NCBI RefSeq assembly: GCF_000473205.1
Contig: NZ_KI421507.1
Location: forward strand, 3,209,057-3,273,056
DNA length: 64,000 nucleotides
Direction of reading: 5' to 3'
Origin: Pseudophaeobacter arcticus DSM 23566
GTDB taxonomy: Bacteria; Pseudomonadota; Alphaproteobacteria; Rhodobacterales; Rhodobacteraceae
Positions within the stretch are counted from its first letter, which is position 1, and every line of letters starts with the position of its first letter. The position numbers and the translations under genes are program-made. Of this stretch, positions 45,152 to 52,844 are shown piece by piece. Below the pieces are notes generated by a model. It searched no databases. It saw nothing but the letters and a program-made list of their open reading frames with translations, and was not told the DNA's origin.

Positions 45152-45985
45152 ATGCCCCAGGCCACGCCCCAGCCCACCGTCAAAATACCCACCGCCAAAA
45201 TGCCCAGCTATTTCATTTCTCACGGGGGTGGCCCCTGGCCCTGGATTCCCGATTGGCGGGCTCAGTTCGCGCCACTAGAAGCCTCCCTCGCCGACATGCC
45301 CACACAATTGCCAGACCGCCCCAAGGCCGTGCTGATGATCTCTGGCCACTGGGAAAGCGATTGTTTTGCGGTCATATCCGCCGCCAGGCCGCCAATGGTT
45401 TATGACTATTCCGGCTTCCCAGCCGAAACCTATGAGATCACCTACCCAGCCCCCGGCGCGCCAGATCTCGCCAAACGCGTCGCGGATCTCATCGAACAGG
45501 CGGGGCTGCCCAGCAGATTGGATCCGGAAATGGGGTTTGACCACGGCTGTTTTGTCCCCATGGCCGTCATGTATCCCGAGGCCGATATCCCCCTGTTTCA
45601 GGTCTCCCTGCGCCATGGTTATGACCCGGAACAGCATTTCAGGTTGGGCCGAGCCCTGGCGCCGCTGCGCGACGAAGGCGTTCTGATCATCGGCTCCGGG
45701 CTCAGCTATCACAACCTCGGTCTGTTTGGCCCCGCTGCCAAACAGCCCTCGCTGCAGTTCGATGCCTGGCTCGACGCGACTCTGGCCCTGCCTCAACCGG
45801 CGCGCACCGCTGCGCTGCTGGACTGGGAGCAAGCGCCCGCAGCCCGAATATGCCATGCCAAAGAAGACCACTTTGCACCGATCTTTGCCGCCCTGGGTGC
45901 AGCCGAAGACGCGCAGGCACTGCGGATCTATCACCAAGATGGCATCTTTGGTGGCGTAACCGCCTCTGGCTATCGCTTCGGCTGA
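45152..45985 (+). CDS. Extradiol ring-cleavage dioxygenase, DODA type
   Basis: A 277-residue class III extradiol dioxygenase-like protein. It has ISHGGGPWPW, SGHWESDC, MGFDHGCFVPMAVMYP and GSGLSYHNLG, providing the histidines that bind metal in the 4,5-DOPA dioxygenase (YgiD) family. GGAGAAG precedes the ATG. The natural substrate is unknown; these enzymes open catechol rings. Confidence 0.88.
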   Translation: MPQATPQPTVKIPTAKMPSYFISHGGGPWPWIPDWRAQFAPLEASLADMPTQLPDRPKAVLMISGHWESDCFAVISAARPPMVYDYSGFPAETYEITYPAPGAPDLAKRVADLIEQAGLPSRLDPEMGFDHGCFVPMAVMYPEADIPLFQVSLRHGYDPEQHFRLGRALAPLRDEGVLIIGSGLSYHNLGLFGPAAKQPSLQFDAWLDATLALPQPARTAALLDWEQAPAARICHAKEDHFAPIFAALGAAEDAQALRIYHQDGIFGGVTASGYRFG

Positions 45986-47301: not shown

Positions 47302-48526
47302 ATGACCCGTAATGACGCCCTAAACCAAGCGACCGAGTATTTTGAAACCGGGCGGCTGCAGTCCGATCTGGCCGCACTGGTGGCCTATCGCAGTGAAAGC
47401 CAGAACCCGGATCAGGCTCTGGTGCTGGATCAATACCTGCAGGAAGCCATTCAACCCCGGCTTGAGGCCATGGGCTTTATCTGTACGATTCACCAAAACC
47501 CAAGTTCAAAGATCGCCGGAGGCCCATTATTGCTAGGGGTACGGATCGAAGACCCCAGCCTGCCGACAGTGCTGACCTATGGCCATGGCGATGTGATCTG
47601 GGGGCAGGAAGGCGAATGGCGCGACGGGCTCACCCCGTTTGAGCTGACCGAAGAGGATGACCGTCTGTATGGCCGTGGGACGGCCGATAACAAGGTGCAG
47701 CATCTGGTCAATATCGCGGCGCTTGAATCTGTTCTGGCCGTGCGCGGCAAGCTTGGCTTTAACGTCAAAATCGTCCTGGAAATGAGCGAAGAAATCGGCT
47801 CGCCTGGCCTGGCCGAAATGATGGACAAGCACCGGGACACTATGGCGGCGGATGTTCTGATTGCCTCTGACGGACCACGACTAAGCGCCGAGCGACCCAC
47901 AATGTTCATGGGCGCACGCGGCGGAATCAGCTTTGATCTGGTGGTGGATCTGCGCAAAGGCGCGCATCATTCAGGCAATTGGGGCGGGCTGCTGGCTGAT
48001 CCCGCTATCATCCTGGCCCAGGCTTTGGCCAGCATCACTGATGCACGCGGCCAGTTGCAGATCCCCGAATGGCGCCCGACAAGCCTGACCCCAAAAATAC
48101 GCGAAGCCCTGCGTGATTTGCCCGTGGGCACCGACAAGGAACCCACCGTCGACACCGATTGGGGTGAAGCAGGCCTAACGCCAGCCGAACGCGCCTATGG
48201 CTGGAACAGTTTTACGATCCTGGCGATGAAAGCAGGACTCCCCGAAGCCCCGGTCAATGCCATCGCCCCAATGGCCTGGGCGCGGTGTCAGCTGCGCTAT
48301 GTGGTTGGCACCGACATTGAACAAACGCTCCCGGCCCTGCGGCGCCACCTGGATGCAAAAGGATTCGACAAGGTTCAGATCAGACCTTTGGACAAAGCCG
48401 TGTTTGGTGCCACCCGGTTAGACCCCGACCACCCTTGGGTGACCTATGTGCAGGCCTCTCTCAAGGAGACAACGGGCAAGGATCCGCATGTTCTGCCCAA
48501 TCTGGCCGGGTCGCTGCCCAATGACT
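47302..48526 (+). pseudogene. M20-family metallopeptidase, 5' part (split by the IS element)
   Basis: 408 intact codons of a dimetal M20/dipeptidase-like hydrolase: VLTYGHGDVIWGQ (first metal His-Asp), LYGRGTADNKVQHL, VLEMSEEIGSPGL (catalytic Glu), IASDGPRL and GAHHSGNWGG. The frame breaks at SLPND, where the insertion sequence begins; ribosomes would read about 68 foreign codons to a stop at 48729. Joined to 49883-50058 it makes 466 residues, normal for the family. It led the M20-matA-matB operon; the amide it cleaves may release malonate, by inference. Confidence 0.9.
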
Positions 48527-48529
48527 TCT

Positions 48530-48544
48530 GTGGGTGGCTCCTGC
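48530..48544 (+). repeat. Subterminal inverted repeat, transposase 3' side
   Basis: GTGGGTGGCTCCTGC, exact reverse complement of 49861-49875. Confidence 0.95.
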
Positions 48545-48778
48545 ATTGCAAGCGTTTTCTGTCGGTATTTGCGGTCATTTTCGTCAGTACTGTCGTCTGT
48601 CCGGCCTGTTTATGTTTTGGCATTGCCTCCACTGGCCCTAATGAATTCCGCGAGCGAGGTTCCAATCGGCTTATCGACCTCAGAGGGCCGCAGCCATTCC
48701 CGGAGTGTCCTTGCTCTTGGTTGACTTAAGTCCGCATCATTACTTCAACGTCTTGCATCTGGTAGGCAGTCGGCGCGG
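48545..48778 (-). ncRNA. Predicted bridge-RNA region of the IS1111-type element
   Basis: A 234-nt non-coding segment between the transposase stop and the inverted repeat. IS110-family recombinases are guided by a structured bridge RNA encoded in a non-coding end; in the IS1111 subgroup this is the end downstream of the recombinase. Only position and length support the call here; no fold was computed. A loose match to the target is visible: CCCTAATGA at 48636-48644 against CCCAATGAC at the junction (48517-48525). Confidence 0.45.
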
Positions 48779-49798
48779 TTAGAACGCGGGCTGCCTGTAT
48801 TCCTGTTTCTTTGTGAGCATCGCCCAGATGGAACGCGCTGCCTTGTTCGCCATCGCGACGGTTGCCAGCCGGAACGGTTTCTCCGCGATGATCTTCGCCG
48901 TCCACAGATCGACTTTTTCAGGTGAGCGCTTCGCCATTACGGCGCGAGACGTCATGCCCACGACCAGAAGCTTGCGAATGTAGCGGTCGCCAGCCTTTGT
49001 GATCTTGCCCAATCGCTCCTTGCCGCCGCTGGATTTGTTGAGCGGGGTCAGCCCCAGCCAAGCCGCTAGATCGCGCCCGGTGCGGAATTGTTTTGCGTCC
49101 CCGATCGTAGCGACAATGGCCGATGCTGTTATTGGCCCAATTCCTGGCATGCGCATCAATCTGCGCGCATTAGCATTTAGCAGAGCATGTTGCTCGATCA
49201 TCTTGGAATAGCCAGAGATGCGTTCGTTCAGGCCGATGAATTGGTAGCACTGTATCCCGAGCATCCCGTTCGCGATCTCAGGCATGTCCGGGTGATCACC
49301 GTCAAGGTGGCGCTTCGCAAAGGCCGTTACCGCTTCGATCCCGATAGGCAAGATATGCCCGAACTCGCGCAACAGGCTGCGGATCATATTGGCCAGCTGG
49401 GTGCGCTGCCGGACTGCCAGATCCCGCGTGCGGTGGATCGATAGAATAGCCTGTTGATCCTCGGTCTTGATCTCGACAAAGCGCATCGTCGGGCGCCTGA
49501 CGGCTTCGCAAATTGCCTCCGCGTCCACCGCATCTGTCTTTCCGCGTTTGACATAAGGCTTTACATAGTTCGCAGGCATCAACCTGACATCGTGACCAAG
49601 TTTGCGCAGTGTGCGCCCCCAATGGTGCGCTGATCCACAGGCCTCCATTCCGACCATACAAGGCGGCAGCGTCTCGAAGAACGCCAATAGCTTCGCACGC
49701 TTGATCGCCTTGTTGAAGATCACGCGACCATTCTCGGAAATACCGTGAACTTGAAAAACATCCTTGGCCAAATCTAGGCCGACTGTCTTAACTGTCAT
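48779..49798 (-). CDS. IS110-family (IS1111 type) transposase
   Basis: A 339-residue recombinase, intact. The N-terminal RuvC-like DEDD domain shows Asp9 (GLDLAK), Glu52 (MEACGSAHHW), Asp89 and Asp92 (KTDAVDAE). The C-terminal Tnp domain contains the helix-hairpin-helix RLMRMPGIGPITASAIVATIGDA and the conserved serine region LNKSSGGKERLGKITKAGD (Ser256/257). This combination is specific to the IS110 family. It is encoded opposite to the gene it interrupts. The ATG at 49798 is immediately preceded by a partial copy of the inverted-repeat sequence (GGAGCCACCC). Confidence 0.95.
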   Translation of the reverse strand: MTVKTVGLDLAKDVFQVHGISENGRVIFNKAIKRAKLLAFFETLPPCMVGMEACGSAHHWGRTLRKLGHDVRLMPANYVKPYVKRGKTDAVDAEAICEAVRRPTMRFVEIKTEDQQAILSIHRTRDLAVRQRTQLANMIRSLLREFGHILPIGIEAVTAFAKRHLDGDHPDMPEIANGMLGIQCYQFIGLNERISGYSKMIEQHALLNANARRLMRMPGIGPITASAIVATIGDAKQFRTGRDLAAWLGLTPLNKSSGGKERLGKITKAGDRYIRKLLVVGMTSRAVMAKRSPEKVDLWTAKIIAEKPFRLATVAMANKAARSIWAMLTKKQEYRQPAF

Positions 49799-49860
49799 TG
49801 GGTGGCTCCTTTCCTAGCAGTTGATGATAATTGCACTTTGGCACATTCGATGCCGGTGGA

Positions 49861-49875
49861 GCAGGAGCCACCCAC
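49861..49875 (+). repeat. Subterminal inverted repeat, transposase 5' side
   Basis: GCAGGAGCCACCCAC, exact reverse complement of 48530-48544; 7 bp separate it from the inferred element end. Confidence 0.95.
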
Positions 49876-49882
49876 CTCATCC

Positions 49883-50058
49883 GCTTTGCCGATGTTCTGG
49901 GCCTGCCAACCATCTGGATTCCGCACAGCTATCTGGGCTGCAACCAACACGCCCCGGATGAGCACGTCCTGAAATCTGTTTGTCGCGAAGCCATGCAGGT
50001 TATGGCAGGCTTGTTCTGGGATATCGGAACCCGTGCCCCTGACCGCGCAACTTCATAA
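49883..50058 (+). pseudogene. M20-family metallopeptidase, 3' part
   Basis: The continuation of the interrupted gene: FADVLGLPTIWIPHSYLGCNQHAPDEHVL, which carries the C-terminal metal-binding His of the M20 active site (QHAPDEH), and the terminal helix to the stop at 50058. It cannot be expressed as part of the enzyme while the element is present. The matA start is 9 bp downstream. Confidence 0.9.
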
Positions 50059-50067
50059 AGGTGATCC

Positions 50068-51348
50068 ATGACCCTACTAGCCGACCTTTTGGCAACTATC
50101 TTTGACAGACGCGCTGCCAGTGTGACAACCGGCAGCTATGACGACAGTTCCTTGTTGGAAATGGTCGATGCCCTGATGGTGACCCGCAGCGAAACCCAGG
50201 TGCTTGGCTTGGCACGCGAGATCCTGGCGCGGTTTCCTAAACTCACCGATGAGCAAAAGCTTGCGTTTTTCAGGCATCTGGCCCTCGGCATGGACATTGA
50301 TCCCCAGGCGGTGCGCGCTGCCCTGAACGCCTATGAGGCGGCGCCTTCTCAATCCACCTACCGCGCCTTTCTGGCCGCTGCTGAACCCCAAAGGCAAGAG
50401 CTGGTGCGGAGGTTAAACCAGGCACCAAATGCAACCGCCGCTCTGGTCCATATGCGCACAGACCTGCTGCGCCTGGGACGTGATGATGCCACCTTGTCGG
50501 CCATTGATTTGGACTTTCGGCATTTGTTTGTCTCTTGGTTCAACCGTGGGTTTCTGGTTCTGCGGCCCATCAGCTGGGAAAGCCCGGCCCATATTCTGGA
50601 AAAAGTGATCGCCTATGAAGCGGTGCATGAAATCCAAAGCTGGGATGACCTGCGCCGCAGACTGGCCCCCGAGGACCGGCGCTGCTTTGCCTTTTTCCAC
50701 CCCGCCATGCCGGACGAGCCGTTGATTTTTGTCGAAGTCGCCCTGACCAAAGGCCGTGCCTCCTCGATCCAGGCCTTGCTCAGCGAGGACCGCACCCCCA
50801 TTGCTGCCAGTGACGCGGATACGGCGGTTTTTTATTCGATCTCCAATTGCCAACCCGGCCTTGCCCAGATCTCTTTTGGCAGTTCCCTGATCAAACAGGT
50901 GGCAACAGATCTTGCGGCGGAACAGGACGGGCTAAAAACCTTTGTGACCCTGTCCCCGATGCCCGGGTTGCGCAAATGGTCCGACCAGATCGGTGCGCCC
51001 TGGGATCCTGACACCCCCGAGACCATGCAGGGATTGGCGGCGCATTATCTGGTCAACGCCAAGCGGGATGATGGCCTGCCCTTTGATCCTGTCGCGCGCT
51101 TCCATCTTGGCAATGGCGCTGTGATTTCAGACATTTATCCAACTGGCGACCAATCTCCCAAGGGATTGGAGCAATCCGGCGGCGTGATGGTCAGCTATTA
51201 TTACGATCTGGCCAAGGTGACTGCCAACCAAGAACATTACATCGCAACCAAAGACGTACAGGCCCTGCCATCCGTCAAGACCCTGGCGAAAGCGACGGCG
51301 GGTACCATCGGCACAAATGAGACCCCATTACATGGTCAATCAACATGA
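50068..51348 (+). CDS. matA: Malonyl-CoA decarboxylase
   Basis: A 426-residue enzyme converting malonyl-CoA to acetyl-CoA and CO2. It has the helical N-terminal domain and the GNAT-like catalytic domain with AVHEIQSWDDLRRRLAPEDRRCFAFFHP, FYSISNCQPGLAQISFG and RFHLGNGAVI (catalytic region). AAAGGTG lies before the ATG. It is second gene of the interrupted operon and overlaps matB by four bases (ATGA at 51345). The upstream insertion sequence may reduce its transcription. Confidence 0.93.
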   Translation: MTLLADLLATIFDRRAASVTTGSYDDSSLLEMVDALMVTRSETQVLGLAREILARFPKLTDEQKLAFFRHLALGMDIDPQAVRAALNAYEAAPSQSTYRAFLAAAEPQRQELVRRLNQAPNATAALVHMRTDLLRLGRDDATLSAIDLDFRHLFVSWFNRGFLVLRPISWESPAHILEKVIAYEAVHEIQSWDDLRRRLAPEDRRCFAFFHPAMPDEPLIFVEVALTKGRASSIQALLSEDRTPIAASDADTAVFYSISNCQPGLAQISFGSSLIKQVATDLAAEQDGLKTFVTLSPMPGLRKWSDQIGAPWDPDTPETMQGLAAHYLVNAKRDDGLPFDPVARFHLGNGAVISDIYPTGDQSPKGLEQSGGVMVSYYYDLAKVTANQEHYIATKDVQALPSVKTLAKATAGTIGTNETPLHGQST

Positions 51349-52844
51349 CTAATCCACTTTATGATACTCTGTTCGGCCGTCACGCCGGGCAATCCACCCC
51401 GTTCCTGCAACTGTTGGATGGCACTTGCCTAACCCATGACAGCTTTTTGGCCATGGCCTCCCAGATCGCCCATGTTTTTGCAGACAAAGGCCTGTCGCCA
51501 GGGGATCGCGTTGCCGTACAGGTAGATAAATCGCCGGAATGCCTTGCGATTTATGCCGCTTGCGCGCAGGCGGGTCTGGTGTTTTTGCCGCTCAACACCG
51601 CCTATACCGCCAGCGAAGTGCAGTATTTCTTTGCAGACAGCGGTGCGGCCCTGATCATCTGCGCCAGCCGCTCCCAGCCGCTGATCCAAGCGATGGCGGA
51701 TGAACTGGATGCGGCGGTGCTGACGCTGGATGCCGATGGCTCGGGGTCTTTGATGGATCACGCCCGCAGCAGGCCCACGACATTGGCCCCGGTCAAGCGC
51801 AGCCCCAGTGATCTGGCCGCATTGCTCTATACATCGGGGACAACCGGGCGCTCCAAGGGCGCAATGCTGAGCCAGGAAAACCTGTTGTCCAATGCCCAGG
51901 TCCTGGCCGCCGAGTGGCAATTCACCAACCAGGACATCCTGCTGCACGCCTTGCCGATCTTTCACACCCACGGCTTGTTTGTTGCGGCCAATGTGACGCT
52001 TATTGCCGGCGGCAGCATGGTGTTTATGCCCAAATTCGATCTCGATACCATGATCAGCTGGATGCCGCGCGCCACCTGCCTGATGGGGGTGCCAACCTTT
52101 TACACCCGCCTGCTGCAAGATGCCCGGTTCAACCGCGATCTGACGGCGCATATGCGGCTGTTCATCTCCGGTTCCGCTCCGCTCCTGGCCGAGACCCATA
52201 TCCAGTTCGAAGAGCGCACCGGCCACCGTATCCTTGAGCGCTATGGTATGACGGAAACCAATATGAACACGTCAAATCCCTATAGTGGCGAACGTCGTGC
52301 GGGCACTGTTGGCTTTCCACTGCCCGGCGTCGAGCTGAAGATAACCAATCCCGACACCGGCGCCGCCCTCCCCCAGGGCGAGATTGGTCAAATCGAAGTG
52401 CGCGGGACAAATGTCTTTCAGGGCTATTGGCAAATGCCGGACAAGACGGCCGCTGAACTGCGCGCTGATGGCTTTTTCATCACCGGAGATCTGGGCCAGA
52501 TCGACAGCGACGGCTATCTGCACATCGTCGGGCGCAACAAAGACCTGATCATCTCGGGCGGGTACAATATTTACCCCAAGGAAATAGAGCTGCTGCTTGA
52601 TGATCAGCCTGATGTACTGGAAAGCGCGGTCATCGGCGTGCCACATGCGGATTTTGGGGAATCGGTGATTGGCATTCTGGTGCCAAAGCCGGGGAAAACA
52701 CCCGATATTTCTGCAATCAAGCTCTCTGTCAGCGCAGCACTCGCAGGTTTCAAACAGCCCCGCAAATTGATCATTGTGGATGAACTGCCGCGCAATGCCA
52801 TGGGCAAAGTCCAAAAGAACATTCTGCGTGACAGGTTTTCCTGA
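51345..52844 (+). CDS. matB: Malonyl-CoA synthetase
   Basis: A 499-residue acyl-CoA synthetase of the MatB group. It shows the adenylate-forming motifs LLYTSGTTGRSKGAMLS (about residues 160-176), YGMTETNMNTSNPY (about 300), GFFITGDLGQID, GRNKDLIISGGYNIYPKEIE and the C-terminal lysine in NAMGKVQKN. The product of matB is the substrate of matA, so the pair converts malonate to acetyl-CoA. No MatC-type or TRAP malonate carrier is adjacent. Confidence 0.92.
   Translation: MTNPLYDTLFGRHAGQSTPFLQLLDGTCLTHDSFLAMASQIAHVFADKGLSPGDRVAVQVDKSPECLAIYAACAQAGLVFLPLNTAYTASEVQYFFADSGAALIICASRSQPLIQAMADELDAAVLTLDADGSGSLMDHARSRPTTLAPVKRSPSDLAALLYTSGTTGRSKGAMLSQENLLSNAQVLAAEWQFTNQDILLHALPIFHTHGLFVAANVTLIAGGSMVFMPKFDLDTMISWMPRATCLMGVPTFYTRLLQDARFNRDLTAHMRLFISGSAPLLAETHIQFEERTGHRILERYGMTETNMNTSNPYSGERRAGTVGFPLPGVELKITNPDTGAALPQGEIGQIEVRGTNVFQGYWQMPDKTAAELRADGFFITGDLGQIDSDGYLHIVGRNKDLIISGGYNIYPKEIELLLDDQPDVLESAVIGVPHADFGESVIGILVPKPGKTPDISAIKLSVSAALAGFKQPRKLIIVDELPRNAMGKVQKNILRDRFS

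Follow-up and report, generated by a model that had tools for sequence, protein, structure and literature searches.

An IS1111-group insertion sequence in an M20 peptidase gene of Pseudophaeobacter arcticus and its predicted target-guiding RNA

The closest described relatives in kind of the element reported here are the IS1111-group insertion sequences ISEc11, ISKpn4, and ISPa11, for which a guide RNA (seekRNA) has been described (PMC11187229). In the sections of that paper available to us, they share with our element subterminal inverted repeats, 7-bp and 3-bp extensions, a lack of target duplication, and a non-coding region downstream of the transposase gene; in their RNA the complement of the target top strand precedes the match to the bottom strand, an order that the RNA predicted here would follow. 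ISPa11 also has a dispersed palindromic repeat as its target. Insertion at REP-type repeats is likewise described, in the available part of PMC1525189, for the IS110-family elements ISPpu9, ISPpu10, and ISRm19, which we compare by description. The IS621 bridge RNA system (PDB 8wt6), as presented in the accessible text of PMC11208160, combines a related transposase with one RNA that has both target and donor parts.

We analyzed a 64,000-nucleotide stretch (the window) of the genome of P. arcticus DSM 23566, in which an initial annotation made from the letters alone had placed an IS1111-type element inside an M20 peptidase gene. We found that the element is bounded as proposed, that it usually occupies a fixed position in a dispersed repeat, and that its putative guide RNA co-varies with its targets. 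The guide RNA, the dispersed-repeat target, and the other copies lay beyond what the initial annotation could see. The features are collected in Table 1.

Table 1. Features of the element and the interrupted locus, in window coordinates
Feature	Position	Strand	Basis or remark
M20 peptidase gene, 5' part	47302..48526	+	PF01546, NF005478
IS1111-group insertion sequence	48527..49882	-	1356 bp; ends set by orthologous empty sites and four other copies
Right-end 3-bp extension	48527..48529	-	TCT on +, AGA in transposase orientation; identical in 5/5 own copies
Right subterminal inverted repeat, 15 bp	48530..48544	-	GTGGGTGGCTCCTGC on +; perfect match to left arm
Predicted bridge/seekRNA, inside downstream non-coding region	48583..48725	-	alignment A3 and consensus fold
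Donor segment 3' arm ACAGA (predicted)	48596..48600	-	same as right-end terminus; 67/67 agreement
Donor segment 5' arm TTCATT (predicted)	48640..48645	-	candidate pairing with GATGAG of left end; inspection
Target guide 3' arm TAAGC (predicted)	48669..48673	-	same sequence as last bases of target left half; 64 sites
GCGGCCC, overlapping apical hairpin	48685..48691	-	matches distal GGCCC of repeat targets; candidate role
Target guide 5' arm AATGGC (predicted)	48693..48698	-	pairs with right half of target; co-variation, 59 sites
DEDD/serine transposase (IS110-family recombinase), 339 aa	48779..49798	-	PF01548 (DEDD_Tnp_IS110), PF02371 (Transposase_20)
Third, internal inverted-repeat copy	49799..49810	-	AGGAGCCACCCA; 12/12 complementary to left repeat
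Left subterminal inverted repeat, 15 bp	49861..49875	-	exact reverse complement of GTGGGTGGCTCCTGC, 15/15
Left-end 7-bp extension	49876..49882	-	CTCATCC on +, GGATGAG in transposase orientation; identical in 5/5 own copies
M20 peptidase gene, 3' part, cut off from start	49883..50058	+	orthologue comparison
Malonyl-CoA decarboxylase, intact	50068..51348	+	PF05292, PF17408
Malonyl-CoA synthase, intact	51345..52844	+	NF005702, 798.1 bits

The element, its ends, and the interrupted gene

IS1111 elements usually carry repeats of 11 to 13 bp with a 7-bp left and a 3-bp right extension; here the repeats, correctly described in the initial annotation as perfect and subterminal with 3- and 7-bp outer flanks, are 15 bp long and the extensions are 7 and 3 bp. 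The group has a DEDD transposase of 330 to 350 residues with the motif GL-P----S(t)G, and the product of our element has 339 residues, with the motif GL-P----SG at residues 249 to 258; the frame is open and both Pfam domains are present, in line with the intact DEDD domain of the earlier description. Residues D9, E52, D89, and D92 lie at what we take to be the positions of the DEDD residues. The protein matches the NCBIfam model NF033542 (“IS110 family RNA-guided transposase”) with 335.7 bits (cut-off, 140), and in a comparison with PDB sequences its residues 212 to 280 match the IS621 and ISCro4 transposases (E = 8.7e-06 for IS621, 8wt6). Strict patterns for the transposase motifs, which are narrow, were all matched in only 30 of the 52 relatives that were translated, a count to which we attach no weight. 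Of the two non-coding regions, the one that follows the transposase gene is the longer, as is usual in the group (234 bp, positions 48545 to 48778, versus 62 bp between the left repeat and the ATG), and all five copies in the genome have the same orientation relative to their sites. On every feature open to testing, the sequence thus agrees with membership of the IS1111 group, as had been proposed.

Deletion of positions 48527 to 49882 joins GACT to GCTTTGCC and gives a peptidase gene of 466 codons, equal to those of two same-genus orthologues, L107 and L108. We found peptidase orthologues in 6 of the 11 other genomes of the genus searched (67 to 89% identity, none with stops), and each of the six reads straight through the junction, neither gaining nor losing a codon. 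The empty site in L107 and L108 (89% and 88% protein identity) reads GACTGCTTTGCC (CCCAATGACTGCTTTGCCGA), exactly the joined flanks; L110 to L112 read NDSF and L109 reads NECF at the junction. A cut moved one base either way would read GACTTCTTT or GACCGCTTT, unlike the orthologues, so the ends of the element are unique. The comparison confirmed, at the level of sequence, that the insertion is clean, with no target duplication, no footprint, and no base gained or lost, and with it the earlier claims that removal of the 1356 bp restores the M20 frame exactly and that the target is not duplicated. As it stands, the broken peptidase frame reads into the element (475 aa) and lacks its last 58 residues, namely, that of the split codon and the 57 that follow.

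The 9-base gap between the peptidase stop and the start of the malonyl-CoA decarboxylase gene, together with the overlap of the decarboxylase and synthase genes, makes cotranscription of the three genes plausible here. We found neither of these partner genes nor the IclR-type regulator near the peptidase gene of G010, G009, or G002 (tblastn, E 1e-5; 2.1 to 2.6 kb upstream and 2.8 to 3.0 kb downstream), so in these three relatives the operon is not kept together as a unit. For the other three orthologues, the check was confined to 1.5 kb and to the decarboxylase and regulator. The gene upstream of the P. arcticus peptidase (45152 to 45985) also occurs in G010 and G009.

The P. arcticus genome (5.05 Mb, six contigs) holds five full copies of the element, four of them identical over 1356 bp, in line with the description of the element as recent. 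All five bear the same TCT and CTCATCC ends and none has different ones, so the boundaries are not due to chance. The fifth copy, L005 (contig C6:24338-25719), is damaged: it is 1382 bp long, with 26 extra bases and an altered patch near the transposase start, and its protein matches the transposase only from residue 43; both of its ends are intact. In the family, 22 of 394 genomes (P. arcticus included) carry the transposase at E 1e-120 or better, and three loci in viral contigs match. A first search for ends covered 78 of 86 loci. A later scan of all loci gave 67 related elements, defined as those passing end patterns that favor similar ends, deduplicated by their flanks. Among these 67, the right-end extension is AGA in 39 and ACA in 28, and the left-end extension is GGATGAG in 54. 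Three loci of one genome (Candidatus Rhodobacter lobularis; L053, L054, and L055) have a common right-flank start and differing left flanks, as if through recombination or mis-assembly. A literature search found no paper joining “IS1111” and “Rhodobacteraceae”; most subscription journals lay outside its scope, and we make no claim of priority.

The internal third copy of the repeat adjoins the transposase ATG and overlaps the ribosome-binding site, with its AGGAG seven bases before the ATG, and AGGAGCCAYCCRATG is found at this position in 61 of the 67 related elements. In the predicted fold of the transposase leader (-37.8 kcal/mol, z -2.0), AGGAG lies in a stem. We rejected the idea of a co-varying hairpin: where the left repeat has become GTGGATGG, the internal copy in most cases is still CCACCC, which shows that pairing is not strictly maintained. 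As a change in the left repeat thus usually goes without a compensating one, a protein-binding role for the internal copy is as likely as a hairpin. Among the literature matches listed, no title or abstract opening hinted at such a third copy.

Target sites and the predicted guide RNA

In the orientation of the transposase, the peptidase site reads CATCGGCAAAGC/AGTCATT (the slash marks the insertion point), and the other four sites in the genome read ACGGCCCACACC/AGCCATT, CCGGCCCAATGC/TGCCTTT, CCGGCCCGGAGC/TGCCACT, and ACGGCCCATACC/GGCCATT. These four have in common a downstream hairpin, GCYGCNNNGCRGC, which in three of them is followed by TTCNCCRAAGCG or a close variant. Four of the five copies thus sit, as repetitive extragenic palindrome (REP)-targeting insertion sequences do, in a palindromic repeat that is dispersed through the genome, always at the same position within it; the peptidase copy does not. 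Using a profile of seven unoccupied repeat copies, we located the repeat at 17 or more places in the genome (E 0.02 or better), among them those seven and three of the four occupied sites. This is a lower bound, as scoring covered 150 of the 2256 first-look candidates.

None of the repeat copies listed lies in the window, the nearest being 1.8 kb past its end (contig C6:3274850-3274928, E 1.5e-7). The listed copies cluster on contig C6 at 24 to 128 kb, 1.637 Mb, 1.82 to 1.87 Mb, and 2.77 to 2.80 Mb. Two sampled clusters resemble mobile islands: L215 carries genes for a phage-type integrase, an SNase-domain protein, and a glycosyltransferase, and L217 carries those for a GmrSD-domain protein, an IS66 transposase, and a protein that matches PADLOC “Orf5” (1.3e-132) and, less strongly, SspE. 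L003 and L004, identical copies of the element in opposite orientation about 2.4 kb apart (contig C6:119772-124850), enclose the integrase gene (L215:9221-10264) and the SNase-domain gene (L215:10852-11475).

The preference extends to relatives. Twenty-three of 60 comparable sites (those of P. arcticus included) are repeat-like, versus 1.2 expected from shuffles. The distal motif GGCCC is present in 22 of these 23 sites and in 23 of the remaining 37, that is, at four or more of its five bases in 45 of 60 sites versus about 2% at other offsets. The last base of the left half is C in 65 of 67 sites, and the second base of the right half is G in all 65 with a flank. A target pattern finds 19 sites versus 3 + 3 for its reversed control.

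The non-coding region 3' of the transposase gene is conserved in relatives. A first alignment of it used 61 loci, and alignment A3 contains 47 of 52 distinct sequences (L018, L030, L069, L070, and L076 were left out, and four further elements gave no match). The consensus fold of A3 has AATGGC and AAGC facing each other across an internal loop with a hairpin at its tip, with weak structural co-variation (-0.71 kcal/mol; double changes in 3 of 24 pairs). Folded singly, the P. arcticus sequence does no better than its own shuffles (z -0.03), and some of the bases of one target arm pair with those of the other. An Rfam search returned just two microRNA matches, both below threshold. The 5' arm varies across elements (AATGGC, AAGGTC, AACGGC, AATGTC), as do the right halves of their sites. 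The donor 5' arm, TTCATC or CTCATC in most relatives, varies hardly at all.

We found that the variable arms co-vary with the targets. Over 59 of 62 right flanks (duplicates dropped), the 5' guides made 295 Watson-Crick pairs with the right halves of their own sites versus 272.7 +/- 3.8 in shuffles within right-end classes; 0 of 20000 shuffles reached this level, and slid registers gave no excess. Over 64 left flanks, the 3' guides matched positions -5 to -2 of the left half 159 times versus 133.9 +/- 4.9 (0 of 10000 shuffles). By position, the observed value was reached in 0 of 10000 shuffles at -2, 56 at -4, and 268 at -5; position -3 showed no co-variation (2945 of 10000). Own-guide fit to the right half was poor in a few elements (L013, 4/6; L018 and L067, 2/6).

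These shuffle statistics ignore descent. Mapped onto the transposase tree, the 6-mer guide calls for 18 changes, and in about 14 independent pairs of tips with separate paths (unsupported branches included; L065 left out of the trees) the own 5' guide fitted better in 10, worse in 0, and equally in 4 (p ~0.002). For the 3' guide, 14.6 such pairs gave 8.7 better, 0.7 worse, and 5.2 equal (median p 0.02, range 0.002 to 0.29). Slid controls were null, and tree-corrected tests on single guide positions were not significant (median p 0.06, 0.5, and 0.25). In every one of the 67 elements, the variable base of the donor segment, ACA(G/C)A, is the one present in the right end, A(G/C)A; this base changed only three times on the tree, and both supported independent pairs agree. 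Guide-target co-variation thus supports the target part of the IS1111 RNA, and the donor part more weakly. The roughly 60 related sites with differing guides amount to a natural test of RNA-guided target choice.

Together, the data favor, with high probability, an autonomous IS1111-group element whose transposase is guided by RNA from its own right end, which usually targets the repeat, one copy having broken the M20 peptidase gene at a chance guide match, where it is effectively stable. The ends, the empty site, the five copies, the shared target, and the guide-target co-variation are established by the sequences compared, and we propose in addition that the guide RNA is made and used and that a circle is the intermediate. 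The right-end RNA would direct the DEDD/serine transposase through a target loop, in which AATGGC (5' arm) would pair with the right half-site and TAAGC (3' arm) would match the left one, and its donor part would match the element's own ends. Insertion would usually occur at the one fixed position in the palindromic repeat; one copy would instead have gone to a chance guide match in the peptidase gene.

An extension of this scheme, which we put forward tentatively and think rather unlikely, is that three separate parts of the RNA recognize the target in this clade, one arm for the right half, one for the proximal left half, and the apical GCGGCCC, which would lock onto the distal GGCCC, and that the third repeat folds over the ribosome-binding site, limiting transposase translation. 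If such three-part recognition were true, repeat sites could tolerate poor proximal pairing, and stray sites such as the peptidase would need good proximal pairing. By eye, GCGGCCC and the target GGCCC do not co-vary. Proximal pairing was not significantly stronger at sites without GGCCC (p 0.21; 0.40 in a second test, with 60 sites). Sorted post hoc by repeat score, these 60 sites averaged 3.73 proximal matches outside the repeat versus 2.96 in it (p 0.003); right-half pairing went the opposite way (5.22 versus 5.57), and the sum of the two did not differ significantly (p 0.11).

Stability and origin of the peptidase insertion

The initial annotation had also suggested that the insertion was possibly reversible and that the operon could switch back on. 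Such a switch, in which the element would leave the peptidase gene precisely and at a useful rate, reactivating it and the genes that follow, would resemble IS492 (IS110 group), whose precise excision is cited in the available text of PMC11208160. Deletion would indeed restore the peptidase frame exactly, and the flanks still match the guides, as circle formation demands: in ISEc11, replacing target bases on either side abolished it (PMC11187229, accessible sections). However, frame restoration is no evidence of excision, because any clean IS1111 insertion gives it, and three relatives showed no such operon around their peptidase gene. Published elements of the group also behave otherwise. In the available parts of the reports, ISEc11 gave a circle that was easy to detect, with no detection of a rejoined target (PMC11187229), and the counts of circle-junction and deletion-junction reads were 5248 and 0 for IS4321 and 403 and 0 for IS5075 (PMC5001619). 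On these counts, we ruled out the switch as the leading reading and consider it improbable; neither suggestion was supported, and the published work on kin gives little reason to expect the peptidase gene to switch back on. Since no resealed donor site has been detected alongside the circles of IS1111 elements, the insertion is probably effectively stable. Its flanks keep the guide match, so the peptidase copy may still form circles and seed new copies.

Could the insertion have been independent of the guide, the match being a coincidence? The peptidase site lies outside the repeat (repeat score 7/16 versus 13 to 15 at the other four sites) and lacks the distal GGCCC of most sites (1/5), and the pattern AAGCNGYCRTT is no commoner in the genome than its reversed control (77 unoccupied sites versus 79), so the guide match alone could be chance. 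Against this, the insertion point, the orientation, and the flanking C and G are the same as at other sites, and the guides fit the peptidase site at 6/6 positions on the right (one of them a wobble) and 4/5 on the left, a sum of 10 versus 8 at each other site in the genome. We consequently hold guide independence to be very unlikely. A reading of the site as off-target, raised by the missing GGCCC, was dropped, since it is the best guide match of the five. Because 77 unoccupied sites fit the guides equally, the peptidase copy reads as a stray but guide-matched insertion, a view that we take from this single site, and it would show what such an insertion looks like. That the conserved peptidase motif is instead a programmed target, the guide having evolved to hit M20 genes, is barely credible in spite of that best match, given that four of five copies and 23 of 60 comparable sites are in the dispersed repeat, that the genome has 77 further matches to the 11-mer pattern, and that all six genus orthologues are uninterrupted.

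Comparison with known systems

We conclude that this mobile element is recent and of an ordinary, known kind, with natural guide-target co-variation that is unusually easy to read. Its full-length relatives include annotated plasmid transposases, known there by their IS110-family annotation only, in Qingshengfaniella (H1, 85.5%), Phaeobacter inhibens (H2, 83.5%), and Ruegeria conchae (H3, 83.2%); among 527 matching records, these three alone span 80% or more of the element. The order of the guide arms in the predicted RNA (top-strand complement, then bottom-strand match) and their co-variation with targets fit the IS1111 seekRNA pattern. Compared with ISEc11, ISKpn4, and ISPa11, which we liken to our element by description rather than by sequence from the available sections of PMC11187229, the target is another one, the left guide would be a separate 3' arm, and the donor segment agrees with the right end. 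ISPpu9, ISPpu10, and ISRm19 differ in their hosts (PMC1525189, in the part available). IS621 differs in other ways: as described in the accessible text of PMC11208160, it belongs to the IS110 group, carries its RNA in the left end with the guide order reversed, and has no long inverted repeats, whereas in our element perfect 15-bp repeats flank a transposase gene with the putative guide at the right end.
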